From Halomonas sp. (GTDB lineage Bacteria > Pseudomonadota > Gammaproteobacteria > Pseudomonadales > Halomonadaceae): DNA of 64,000 nucleotides. Both the position numbers and the translations under genes were made by a program. Location: NCBI RefSeq assembly GCF_030457605.1, contig NZ_JAKDUR010000003.1, forward strand, positions 1 through 64,000, read 5' to 3'. Below are positions 40,356-62,039 of this stretch, piece by piece. The stretch's first letter is position 1; the number at the start of each line of letters is the position of its first letter. The notes under the pieces were generated by a model. That model ran no database searches. It was given only the letters and a program-made list of their open reading frames with translations, and was not told the origin of the DNA.

Positions 40356-40468
40356 GGTCTTTTTATCCTTCGCGCCAACGCTCTCGCGATAGCAGGGGGC
40401 AAGAAAAGGCGCATATCTTACCCAAAGGCGTGCCGTGATGCGAGCCTCACGGGCACCCTGCCGCCGTG

Positions 40469-41101
40469 TTAAACGCCTGCCCGGTGGCTTTGCAGAAAGC
40501 GCTCTGCCGTTTCTACAATCGCCTGAGTCTGCGGGTCTATTTCAATGTTTATCACGTCTCCCGGCACGCGTTCGCCAAGCGTAGTGCGGGCCAGGGTTTC
40601 AGGTATCAGGTTAACGCAAAACGACGCCGGCGCATCATCGGGGCGGCACACTTCGCCAACGGTCAGGCTGATGCCGTCTACGCCCACGTAGCCTTTATCA
40701 AACACAAACCGCGCGCACTCGTCGGGCAAAACAAACCACAGCCGGCGGTTGTTGGGCGCCTCTTCGATGGACAGCACCTCGGCCATGTTCATCACATGGC
40801 CGGACATCGCGTGCCCGCCAATTTCATCCCCGAAGCGCGCCGCACGCTCAAGGTTGACGCGATCGCCAACGGTAATTTTTCCCAGATTCGTTACCCGCAA
40901 GGTTTCGCGCATCAAATCAAAATGCACGCTATCGCCGTCAACCGCCGTCACCGTCAGGCAAACGCCGTTGTGCGCCACCGACGCACCAATCTCAAGCCCT
41001 TCGCGTACCCCCTCGGGCATGGCCACCACATGGGTACGAAATGCCTCGCGCTCGCGCACCTCCACCACTTTTGCCGTCCCCTGCACGATACCGGTAAACA
41101 T
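40469..41101 (-). CDS. ribE: Riboflavin synthase alpha subunit
   Basis: Dismutates two 6,7-dimethyl-8-ribityllumazines to riboflavin. It has 210 residues from ATG 41101 (MFTGIVQGTAKVVEV), with a strong AAGGAG eight bases upstream. Two lumazine-binding domains are visible, each opening with the MFTGIV/FDKGYVGVDGISLTV type block (about 1-95 and 96-195). It is not adjacent to other riboflavin genes here, which is unusual for Gammaproteobacteria, where it often sits in a ribD-ribE-ribBA-ribH group. Immediately upstream is the integron remnant. Confidence 0.95.
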   Translation of the reverse strand: MFTGIVQGTAKVVEVREREAFRTHVVAMPEGVREGLEIGASVAHNGVCLTVTAVDGDSVHFDLMRETLRVTNLGKITVGDRVNLERAARFGDEIGGHAMSGHVMNMAEVLSIEEAPNNRRLWFVLPDECARFVFDKGYVGVDGISLTVGEVCRPDDAPASFCVNLIPETLARTTLGERVPGDVINIEIDPQTQAIVETAERFLQSHRAGV

Positions 41102-41121
41102 GGGTCTATCTCCTTGATGTG

Positions 41122-41289
41122 TCAAAGTGCTGTATCAACGTCCTGGGCCAGGCTCTGGTCAAAAGGCCTGAAACCCATGACACGTCGCTCGCAAAATTTG
41201 GGGCACCATTGTGCCATTAGTGCGGGGAATTTTTCGCCTATGGGAAGCGGGCCCACAAGCAGGGTATTAAGTATGATGTCGTACGACAT
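41122..41289 (-). CDS. Small ORF of a second, 3'-truncated gene cassette
   Basis: 55 residues (MSYDIILNTLLVGPLPIGEKF ... AQDVDTAL) from ATG 41289, with AGGAG six bases upstream. It begins 14 bases after the core site GTTATAT that closes the first cassette, the usual distance for a cassette gene. I do not recognise the protein. A complete cassette should carry GGCATATAAC at the start of its own attC, complementary to its 5' end. I find none before ribE, so this cassette appears to have lost its 3' part or was joined to ribE. Its stop lies 20 bases before ribE. Confidence 0.5.
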   Translation of the reverse strand: MSYDIILNTLLVGPLPIGEKFPALMAQWCPKFCERRVMGFRPFDQSLAQDVDTAL

Positions 41290-41302
41290 TGGTGCTCCTG
41301 GC

Positions 41303-41374
41303 ATATAACGCCTGAGCTCAGCCGCCGACAGCCCGCGTAGCGGGATGAAGGTCGGCTGCAGCGACTTGTTAGGG
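41303..41374 (-). repeat. attC recombination site (integron cassette, 59-base-element type)
   Basis: On the minus strand it opens with core CCCTAAC (41374-41368) and ends with GTTATAT (41309-41303), 72 bases in all. The arms AACAAGTCGCTGCAGCCGAC and GTCGGCGGCTGAGCTCAGGC are imperfectly complementary, with a CCCGC/GCGGG central stem: the folded single-strand structure recognised by IntI. It lies 18 bases after the cassette gene's stop. Confidence 0.88.
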
Positions 41375-41917
41375 GCCAATGATAGGACGCGTTCAAAATT
41401 TGAGCTCTGGATACCTGTTCCTTATTAACGGAATGACGTTGTTTAGAAAGCAAAATACAAGGCCCGATATACTTATAGTTTTCTCCGCAAACTTGTCAGT
41501 TGTAATTTTTACGTAGGTTGCTTGGAGATTTGCTTCCGACTTCTCAAATATGCGGCGGTGATCTACATGAGAATGACCAAGGATGAACGAGTTGACGTGA
41601 ACAAAAGCGTTTAACGCATAGTGATAGTTCGCTTCCCAGTTTCCGGGATCGTTATCCGAGATCTTCACAATAAGAGTATTAATGGGCTCAAACGTTTCTT
41701 CTCGTAGTTTACAAAACTCGTTTACCTTTCGTGCGTGAAACGCAAATTCCAGAAGGTCGGGAGTTATGATTTCGTTCCATGCCTGGCTCCATTCCGAAGG
41801 AAATACGGTACTCACATAGGCGAAGAGCCTAAGCGCGTATCTCCGCGCCTCCTGGACGTGTATTTCGGTGAGCTTTTGCGTACTTTCGCCTTCCATAGTG
41901 CTTCCTTTGGCCCCTAA
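41309..41917 (-). mobile_element. Complete integron gene cassette
   Basis: A 609-base unit bounded by two integron cleavage points. Its 5' end on the minus strand (GTTAGGGGCC, 41918-41909) is exactly complementary over ten bases to the first bases of its own attC (GGCCCCTAAC, 41377-41368). That is the defining feature of a cassette that has circularised and been inserted. It carries one leftward gene (41393-41896) and the attC site, with almost no other sequence. It is visibly more AT-rich than the surrounding genome, consistent with horizontal origin. Confidence 0.88.
41393..41896 (-). CDS. Cassette-encoded protein of unknown function
   Basis: 167 residues; I do not recognise the family. 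AAGGAAG lies five bases before the ATG, giving a compact cassette layout. The sequence is mostly helical and acidic to neutral, without a signal peptide. One hydrophobic stretch (ISISGLVFCFLNNVIPLI, about residues 141-158) near the C-terminus could be buried or membrane-associated. There is a His-rich segment, ILGHSHVDHRRIF, at about 104-116. Base and codon use are much more AT-rich than the neighbours (AAA, AAT, TTT, ATA common), so it was acquired. Cassette proteins of this type are often toxins, antitoxins, phage-defence or novel adaptive proteins, but nothing here proves any of these. Confidence 0.8.
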   Translation of the reverse strand: MEGESTQKLTEIHVQEARRYALRLFAYVSTVFPSEWSQAWNEIITPDLLEFAFHARKVNEFCKLREETFEPINTLIVKISDNDPGNWEANYHYALNAFVHVNSFILGHSHVDHRRIFEKSEANLQATYVKITTDKFAEKTISISGLVFCFLNNVIPLIRNRYPELKF

Positions 41918-41918
41918 C
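41909..41918 (-). other. attI-side core recombination site
   Basis: GTTAGGGGCC on the minus strand marks where the first cassette joined the integron platform. The sequence to its right (TAGAGCGCGCTGTCTAATACCT on the minus strand, split here as TAGAGCGCGC then TGTCTAATACCT) would be the remaining attI. The attI is not conserved enough to compare with known classes by eye. Confidence 0.65.
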
Positions 41919-41945
41919 AGGTATTAGACAGCGCGCTCTATGATT

Positions 41946-41994
41946 GGATAAACGTGCCGGCACGTTTATCCGACAAAAAAAGCCTGCTTTTTTT
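41946..41994. repeat. Two adjacent perfect palindromes in the attI-intI gap
   Basis: GGATAAACGTGCC directly abuts its reverse complement GGCACGTTTATCC (41946-41971, 26 bases, no spacer). Three bases later AAAAAAAGC and GCTTTTTTT (41975-41994) form a second inverted repeat with a two-base gap, which could work as a bidirectional terminator. They lie between the cassette array and the integrase remnant. A regulator operator or scar of a lost element is possible. Confidence 0.75.
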
Positions 41995-42140
41995 CGCCCA
42001 ACACATTGATTTATATTCGAATTAATTAAAACTCGGCTACCTATGCAGGATTCGCACGCTTGCGCTTTTGCGCGGCACCCATAAAACTGTACGTATACCC
42101 ACACAACAAGAGGGACAGCTGTACGGGCACGCCCCACAAG

Positions 42141-42251
42141 CCGCCAAAGCTGTTGGACCGCGTGAAGGCCACTATGCAAGCGAGGCTCTATAGCCCTCAT
42201 ACCGAAAAGGCCTGTTACGACTGGATACGTGACTTTATGCGTGTTCATGGC
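42141..42251 (+). pseudogene. intI: N-terminal remnant of an integron integrase (IntI)
   Basis: A 37-codon stretch reads PPKLLDRVKATMQARL then YSPHTEKACYDWIRDFMRVHG, the start of the SAM-like N-terminal domain of integron tyrosine recombinases (compare the KVLDQLRERIR...[21 protein letters not shown] pattern of IntI1). After HG the similarity stops and the rest of the catalytic domain (Arg, His, Tyr residues) is absent, so it cannot be active. It is transcribed away from the cassettes, the standard integron arrangement, about 220 bases from the attI-side core site. The frame stays open to 42404 but with unrelated sequence, suggesting deletion of the middle and end of the gene. Confidence 0.75.
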
Positions 42252-42287
42252 ACCGCCATTCCTTTGGCATGGGTTCAGGTTCTTTGT

Positions 42288-46126: not shown

Positions 46127-46203
46127 TGGTAGGACCAGGCGGATTTGAACCGCCGACCTCCACGATGTCAACGTGGCGCTCTAACCAACTGAGCTATGGT
46201 CCT
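46127..46203 (-). tRNA. tRNA-Val (GAC)
   Basis: On the minus strand it starts AGGACCATAGCTCAGTTGG and ends TGGTCCTACCA. The acceptor stem is a perfect seven-bp AGGACCA/TGGTCCT. Anticodon stem CCACG/CGTGG encloses TTGACAT, so the anticodon is GAC (valine, reading GUC and GUU). T arm GGCGGTTCAAATCCGCC is standard. CCA is encoded in the genome. 77 bases. It is the second of a pair on one leftward transcript. Confidence 0.97.
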
Positions 46204-46263
46204 GTAAATTGTGGCTATTAACACTAGCCGGCTGCCATGCAACGTCTGCGTGAACAATGCGCT

Positions 46264-46340
46264 TGGTAGGACCAGGCGGATTTGAACCGCCGACCTCCAC
46301 GATGTCAACGTGGCGCTCTAACCAACTGAGCTATAGTCCT
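46264..46340 (-). tRNA. tRNA-Val (GAC), second copy
   Basis: Identical to the copy at 46127-46203 except for AGGACTA at the 5' end, giving one G-U wobble in the acceptor stem against TGGTCCT. Anticodon GAC in loop TTGACAT, CCA encoded. It is the first in the transcript, upstream of the other copy by 60 bases. Confidence 0.97.
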
Positions 46341-61061: not shown

Positions 61062-61712
61062 TTGGTCTTGCTGACACCGGGCAAACCGGTCACGCACAAA
61101 AAACGGTGCCCGGCCGCATGGCTGGGCACCGTTGTTATGTGTGCCGCGCTGAGCGTTGGCGTGGCACATGCTGACGTGCAGCCGACCTTTGGCGCCGCAG
61201 AGCCCAGTGCCCGTCAAACGGCGGAACTTCGCCGCTTTCGCTCCGCCATGGACAGTCGGCTGGCACCCTTCATGCCGAGCGCCGAAGCACGCCGCCATTT
61301 ACTCGAACGGGTCTACCGCGAAGCCCGGTTGGCCCGGCTGCCACCGTCGCTGGTGCTGGCGTTGATCGAGGTGGAAAGTGCTTTTCGGCCGACGGCGGTG
61401 TCATCTGCCGGCGCGGTAGGACTGATGCAGATCATGCCTTTCTGGATTGACGAGCTGGGGCTTGCCACCGATGACCTGCAAACACCGACACGCAACCTGC
61501 GCTACGGCTGTACCATCCTTGGCCACTATCTGGCCGTGGAAGGCGGTGATTTTACCCGGGCATTGGCGCGCTATAACGGCAGCCTGGGTAAAACCCGTTA
61601 TCCGGAACGCGTGCTCAGCGCCTGGCAGGAGCGCTGGCGTATTGCCCGATCAGGCACAAAAAAAGCCGGCTCCGAAGAGCCGGCGACTGGAGGCGTTGGC
61701 CTCCTCCCCTGA
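61062..61712 (+). CDS. Lytic transglycosylase (SLT domain)
   Basis: 216 residues with an N-terminal signal (AAWLGTVVMCAALSVGVAHA) and an SLT domain: ALIEVESAFRPTAVSSAGAVGLMQIMP with the catalytic Glu, and CTILGHYLAVEGGDFTRALARYNGS. It should cleave the glycan strand of peptidoglycan giving 1,6-anhydro-muropeptides, which AmpG and NagZ recycle. The start is TTG, at 61062 or 61068; the latter has ACAGG about seven bases upstream. It begins six bases after proS. Its final codons overlap a minus-strand terminator hairpin (61658-61684). Confidence 0.85.
   Translation: MVLLTPGKPVTHKKRCPAAWLGTVVMCAALSVGVAHADVQPTFGAAEPSARQTAELRRFRSAMDSRLAPFMPSAEARRHLLERVYREARLARLPPSLVLALIEVESAFRPTAVSSAGAVGLMQIMPFWIDELGLATDDLQTPTRNLRYGCTILGHYLAVEGGDFTRALARYNGSLGKTRYPERVLSAWQERWRIARSGTKKAGSEEPATGGVGLLP
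61658..61684 (-). terminator. Leftward intrinsic terminator inside the lytic transglycosylase gene
   Basis: On the minus strand GCCGGCTC-TTCG-GAGCCGGC is followed by seven T, an ideal terminator with a UUCG-type tetraloop. It lies about 85 bases beyond the stop of the small CcoM-like gene, so that transcript runs antisense to the 3' end of the transglycosylase gene. Confidence 0.88.
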
Positions 61713-61769
61713 CGACTTGCTAGCGCCCTGTGACGCCGTGTTTTCCTGTTGCTTGTGCTCTGTCGATTT

Positions 61770-61880
61770 TTACCGTTTACGGCGATGATCCCGAATAATG
61801 AAGCCGACCCATCCGGCCATGAAAGCAATCATCAAACCGACGGTGACCAATCCGAAGATTACTGCATCATCCCAATACAT
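61770..61880 (-). CDS. Small single-membrane-segment protein, CcoM-like
   Basis: 36 residues: MYWDDAVIFGLVTVGLMIAF, then MAGWVGFIIRDHRRKR. A short acidic N-terminus, one membrane helix (about residues 7-29) and a basic tail. GGGAGCAAGGCT provides a ribosome binding site before ATG 61880. The pattern M-x-x-D-x-V ... TVGLM-x-AF-x-AG ... RKR closely resembles CcoM, a small subunit of the Pseudomonas stutzeri cbb3 cytochrome oxidase, as I recall it. No cco genes are nearby. The downstream terminator supports a real monocistronic gene. Confidence 0.7.
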   Translation of the reverse strand: MYWDDAVIFGLVTVGLMIAFMAGWVGFIIRDHRRKR

Positions 61881-62039
61881 AGCCTTGCTCCCGCCGTGAT
61901 GTGTTGCTCCATACTAGGCAGGAAACGGCGGGCAAAACCTGACGCGGATCAACTCCTGCACCTTGCCTGCAAGGCGCAGCATGGCTATTTGACCCACGTC
62001 ATCTTTACGCTTAGCGCGCTATTTGTCAGGCGCTGCTTC

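Follow-up and report, generated by a model that had tools for sequence, protein, structure and literature searches.

A decayed integron between metN and ribE in Halomonas: an attI platform whose cassettes were probably exchanged in trans

Introduction

What becomes of an integron once its own integrase is dead? The integrase, IntI, works on two kinds of substrate, attI and attC, and need not be encoded beside either of them. In the usual view a single attI lies next to intI, and arrays without the gene tend to be taken for relics. The question is raised by a locus between metN and ribE of a Halomonas genome, contained in a stretch of 64,000 nucleotides that we call the window. The original prediction, made from this DNA alone, saw there a chromosomal integron frozen by the truncation of its integrase.

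Chromosomal integrons at ilvD in Xanthomonas, with truncated or lost intI and residual cassettes, are described in the available text of PMC12444791, along with CALINs elsewhere that a functional IntI can mobilise in trans, and with secondary integration sites termed attG. Integrase-less arrays are also known from Shewanella, where single-attC elements were named SALIN (PMC9229058, available part). According to the portion of PMC9024848 at hand, little has been described of attI sites beyond those of class 1, and IntegronFinder 2.0 does not detect them. For Halomonas itself, a table apparently lists Halomonas sulfidaeris SST4 as a CALIN (PMC10295459, accessible part), and the accessible part of an account of group II introns in halophile integrons leaves Halomonas unmentioned (PMC7923331).

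Results and Discussion

Components of the integron remnant

In its parts the window is an ordinary decayed integron (Table 1). Its genome of origin, hereafter G000, is 79.6% complete; by genus we mean Halomonas/Vreelandella.

Table 1. Features of the integron remnant and its neighbours in the window.
Feature	Coordinates	Strand	Remarks
metN	from ~42801	+	one neighbour of the integron remnant
intI remnant	42137-42273	+	aligns with intI nt 15-152; lacks the start codon; 1-nt deletion near 42254; remainder of gene absent
attI site	41915-42013	+	cassette border is the core, plus-strand TAAC 41915-41918
Complete gene cassette, ~609 bp, abutting attI	41309-41917	-	borders from core sites
Cassette ORF P0001, 167 aa	41393-41896	-	function unassigned
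attC of the complete cassette	41306-41371	-	covariance model and motif-and-fold finder
Head of truncated second cassette, AGGAG and ATG	~41252-41308	-	fused to ribE-upstream DNA; border set by the end of homology in G049 and G079
Old ribE-upstream flank, non-cassette DNA	41122-41251	-	common to G049, partly to G079
ribE	40472-41101	-	other neighbour of the integron remnant

We built a covariance model of attC (R2) on 32 sites of related genomes, the window being excluded. These were retained from 57 strict finder matches after removal of the window site and its copies, the ribE-locus sites of relatives, duplicates, some long sites, and evident false matches within metN or intI. Covariation in the alignment is strong: 83.3% of cells are paired as against 59.9% in shuffles, and the covariation score is 0.460 as against 0.141, both for a structure drawn on the same alignment. 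R2 found a single match in the 64 kb (38.1 bits, E = 1e-6), and a motif-plus-folding finder returned the identical single site. Applied to 100 simulated windows of equal dinucleotide composition, the same finder gave 11 matches, none equally stable. The model match places the attC proposed at 41303-41374 correctly to within 3 bases. The cassette begins with GTTAGGGGCCAA and the attC leads with TTGGCCCCTAAC; the proposed complementarity between the two is present and extends over 12 bases rather than 10. A solitary second attC match in G000 lies on contig C23 (L157 1501-1565, 49.7 bits).

The start of a second cassette, which had been read on the minus strand as far as 41122, stands only for a head of about 57 bp; the rest is older DNA. 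Homology to G049 (89.6% over 40400-41251) ends, upstream of ribE, at window position 41251, and a 51-base homologous piece in G079 (41201-41251) has the same end point. Thus, the ORF that reaches 41122 joins the head of a cassette to old DNA from upstream of ribE. We rejected P0002 (41122-41292) as a second-cassette protein, since it consists mostly of this old DNA.

On the other side of the complete cassette, an attI-side core had been expected. A sequence model (R3) built on 16 intI-linked attI sites, again excluding the window, matched there with 67.9 bits (E = 7.5e-20), and the window attI aligns with its intI-linked counterparts. A perfect 26-base palindrome lies inside this attI at 41946-41971, and inverted repeats occupy the corresponding position in several further attI sites of the genus. 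Further on, the intI remnant matched PF13495 (E = 1.2e-4) and TIGR02249 (E = 0.0028), both under the curated cut-offs. Aligned to an intact intI of the genus, its reading ends after codon 51 through the one-base deletion, beyond which similarity falls to the level of shuffled sequence (tail score 27, shuffled mean 28). The IntI N-terminal remnant predicted at 42141-42251 is indeed truncated IntI, though its range was drawn slightly short.

The attC, attI and intI-remnant matches together bear out the reading of a chromosomal integron in decay that retains a single intact cassette. A complete integron has a functional intI adjoining attI, and here that gene is frameshifted and truncated; the attI is present, and an attC cassette lies at it in the correct orientation. 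By the default of IntegronFinder 2 a CALIN comprises at least two attC without intI. The window has one attC match and would count as a SALIN, in the term of PMC9229058 as its available part uses it. In the present analysis we define a further category, the integrase-less attI platform: an attI homologous to intI-linked attI, without functional intI, at which orthologous cassettes differ. The window locus has all three properties.

The same locus in related genomes

At the orthologous site of G079, whose RibE has 96% protein identity to that of the window, we found the same attI (65.8 bits) and the same intI stub. In place of the window cassette, G079 has an array encoding a PD-T7-5-like protein (E 5.1e-104), a type II-A retron (NDT protein 1e-49, RT 3.1e-99), a 258-residue protein for which we found no family match, and an SDR protein, with three attC matches between cassettes. 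The PD-T7-5-like gene and the retron, with its NDT and RT, occupy successive cassettes (L130 4738-8774). An IS flanked by a TTTAT target duplication, both read by eye, sits within the G079 stub (L130 9104-10818).

The cassette adjoining attI differs between G000 and G079, with an exact core junction in each. The metN-side contig of G049 has the attI-side DNA and the same sequence after intI, most of the stub being deleted; its attI-proximal cassette is absent from the contigs examined, so the comparison of first cassettes is between G000 and G079. G049 informs on a second point, as the terminal SDR segment adjoins one attC in G079 and another in G049, again with exact core junctions. In G009, metN and ribE are separated by a 574-residue gene, presumably related to sulfate activation, with no integron between them.

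The junction of the dead intI is common to G000, G079 (to the right of the IS) and G049, each the one genome of its species that we compared. This junction is therefore older than the split of the three, and the differing exact junctions were formed afterwards, or elsewhere, on a platform that lacked intI. The inference that truncation of the integrase had frozen the array is thus unsupported: the relatives share the dead intI, yet carry different cassettes at exact cores.

Integrases in the genus and the origin of the exchange

A profile search of the G000 contigs found no intI above the cut-off in this incomplete genome, and the window site may consequently be inactive now. TIGR02249 matches on contigs C1 (L004), C52 and C65 were rejected as intI, as none passes the intI cut-off; we take the first to resemble a plasmid-type recombinase fragment and the other two XerC/XerD. 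Among 61 genomes of the genus searched, 15 have an intI above the family cut-off, two of them with in-frame stops. Together with the variation among relatives, this speaks against an invariant sequence shared by all of them without any intI homologue, a condition under which the original prediction was to be given up and which we checked. Of the 46 genomes without such an intI, 40 keep attI matches, and the number of attI matches is independent of the presence of intI (Mann-Whitney P = 0.75). Possession of an attI is therefore no proof that the genome now encodes an integrase. These counts suggest that integrases are gained and lost around platforms that persist, and that a platform may spend long periods idle. 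G079 encodes a full-length IntI elsewhere in its genome (394.9 bits, cut-off 265) and has four attI matches, three of them placed, one at the dead-intI site studied here. G035 likewise has a full-length intI, together with seven attI matches.

Judged from sequence comparison, the locus between metN and ribE is probably an attI platform without integrase, left by a chromosomal integron, whose cassettes have been exchanged in trans. Its own intI was inactivated, by a frameshift and loss of the 3' two thirds, in a common ancestor of at least three species, as the junction shared by G000, G079 and G049 shows. Afterwards cassettes would have entered or left at the core sites of the platform through exact, site-specific recombination, to which the differing exact junctions point. 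Such exchange after the death of intI requires an integrase acting in trans, and a second chromosomal integron like that of G079 could have supplied it.

Alternatively, the locus might have been exchanged between strains by homologous recombination, for instance through natural transformation, after site-specific events in integrase-bearing donors. The flanks are conserved enough for this, at 94% at the ribE side, and most of the searched attI-bearing genomes have no intI above the cut-off. We nevertheless regard it as rather unlikely, since the dead-intI junction common to three species means that in the donors, too, an integrase would have had to work on a platform that lacked intI; it is in any case compatible with exchange in trans. 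Still less probable is a plain remnant, frozen at the death of intI, in which each species kept different parts of a long ancestral array. The gene is dead in all three species, none above the cut-off was found in G000, and the G079 remnant even harbours an IS, all as this account expects. It is harder to reconcile with the first cassettes, which differ between G000 and G079 and in both meet attI exactly at the core, or with the one SDR segment that adjoins different attC in G079 and G049, as deletions that arise with no integrase at work would not be expected to end at core sites. Many further sites show this pattern too, as described below.

Dispersed attI sites and turnover of their cassettes

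Exchange in trans at an integrase-less platform need not be peculiar to one locus. In the genus, R3 matched 73 of 82 genomes, with 262 matches in total, a median of 3 and a maximum of 11; matches at 40-50 bits are less certain. In a sample of the family, matches occurred in 84 of 121 genomes, 11 of these 84 belonging to the genus itself, and extended to 17 of 24 genera. A class-wide sample of 143 genomes gave one positive, the window's own, and none among the other 142. Scans of more than 40 genomes applied stricter filters, at the cost of weak matches. Plasmid records held no match to the window attI.

We hand-picked 40 loci from the best attI matches of the genus, those given with positions, away from known intI matches; one of them, L191, was chosen for its cassette relative. 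They hold 45 attI matches, whose border at the TAACA core is sharp. At least one attC match was present at 26 of the 40 loci (11/20 and 15/20), the remaining 14 having none. Of the attC matches, 19/20 and 29/29, together 48/49, lay on the side of the cassettes and on their strand, the lone exception being L196 3778-3859. A tblastn search with three IntI queries and the stub detected IntI homology at three of the 40 loci: a 21-residue stub at L208 and weak C-terminal matches at L224 and L226. Serial attI pairs in the same orientation, 0.6-1.8 kb apart, were seen at L197, L207, L220 and L224. That these sequences are some other repeat or promoter element is very improbable, for although some 100-190 bp are kept, inverted repeat included, and 14 loci lack attC matches, they are collinear with intI-linked attI, break off sharply at the core, and have nearly all attC matches on the correct side and strand.

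Single-linkage grouping of the 45 attI matches by similarity of the integron-distal flank gave 10 groups with 37 members, groups 2 and 3 containing weak links. The groups comprise 66 between-genome pairs, of which 62 have directly similar flanks, 58 of them at more than 80 bits. None of the 62 flank-similar pairs showed similarity on the cassette side (tblastx, E 1e-5, 1.5 kb), whereas 16 between-genome pairs at non-orthologous sites do share some, mostly weak. Near the border, cassette-side identity was 0.38 against a background of 0.36, and attI identity was 0.82, in 41 pairs from chosen groups. Mean identities over these 41 pairs run from 0.82 in attI to 0.77 and 0.72 in the flank, and the conservation of attI and flank is too close for a claim of selection. 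Two groups have conserved DNA on both sides of different arrays, namely L194/L199 (far flank 97.8%) and L206/L215/L222 (86-87%); in the other five pairs compared, the far flank was unreached or not found. Some cassettes were also met again at other attI sites; the 592-bp first cassette of L077, for example, lies inside the array of L068 at 92.9% identity.

Our data thus show that the family has many attI sites without intI at fixed chromosomal places, and that their cassette side differs between species. In the simplest reading of these sequences, a remote or earlier integrase would have served the platforms, which suggests that gene capture can continue after the local enzyme is lost. We lean, with some reserve, towards a broader picture in which the Halomonadaceae would have a distributed integron: several fixed attI platforms per chromosome, many without intI, would swap cassettes by means of an integrase whose gene lies at one other locus or is only intermittently present in the lineage. 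Platforms would then outlive integrases, and integron activity would be uncoupled from linkage to intI.

Relation to known systems

Sites of the attG type are short, and the Halomonas sites differ from them in measuring ~100 bp, in being homologous to intI-linked attI and in being fixed at orthologous places. The two have in common that cassettes insert away from the intI-linked attI, as far as attG is described in the available text of PMC12444791. The same text recounts for the ilvD integrons of Xanthomonas what we see in the window, an ancestral chromosomal integron with intI often truncated and leftover cassettes. There, attC alone defines the remote arrays, and the part available describes no dispersed attI (PMC12444791), whereas the remote arrays of Halomonas begin at a recognisable attI. 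The window also resembles CALINs and SALINs in having attC-bearing cassettes without intI; unlike the platform category, those classes make no use of attI in the portions of PMC9024848 and PMC9229058 at hand.

The expectation that integron remnants would be little described in such genomes agrees with the literature found, which includes the one apparent Halomonas CALIN. That array, in SST4, is integrase-less and comes from the same family as the window; in the accessible part of PMC10295459 it is a table entry only, without attI or comparison. The literature surveyed, drawn mostly from outside subscription papers, held no description of dispersed attI sites. What appears to be new is therefore the integrase-less attI platform that has probably been refilled; truncated intI and leftover cassettes were known before. 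Should attI platforms be dispersed at conserved positions and refilled in trans, arrays without intI could be live sites of capture, and annotation by attC alone would miss them. A concrete system in which trans use of attI platforms can be tested is offered by G079, where a single intact IntI is accompanied by four attI matches, one of them at the dead site described here.

The cassette protein and other features of the window

P0001 has relatives at 58-60% protein identity in three of 81 other genomes of the genus. The family member in G064 has attC matches on both sides; that in G021 lies directly at an attI without intI, with no attC match at that locus. A relative at 60% identity occurs in a Burkholderia record (L158 1414-1920), where the 7.9-kb locus contained no attC match. 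Pfam and PADLOC returned no match to P0001. Similarity to NCBIfam AAC(2')-Ie is weak (E 0.044, 13.6 bits, cut-off 400), as are two PHROG matches (E 0.0058 and 0.031), and a PDB sequence match reached only E 0.95. The predicted structure is of moderate confidence (mean pLDDT 70.3), and Foldseek found nothing in the PDB at E <=0.001.

At gathering thresholds, Rfam gave no attC family in the window. Elsewhere in the window it matched PhrS at 61657-61913 on the minus strand (43.7 bits, gathering 37), and two tandem tRNA-Val(gac) genes lie on the minus strand at 46127-46340.
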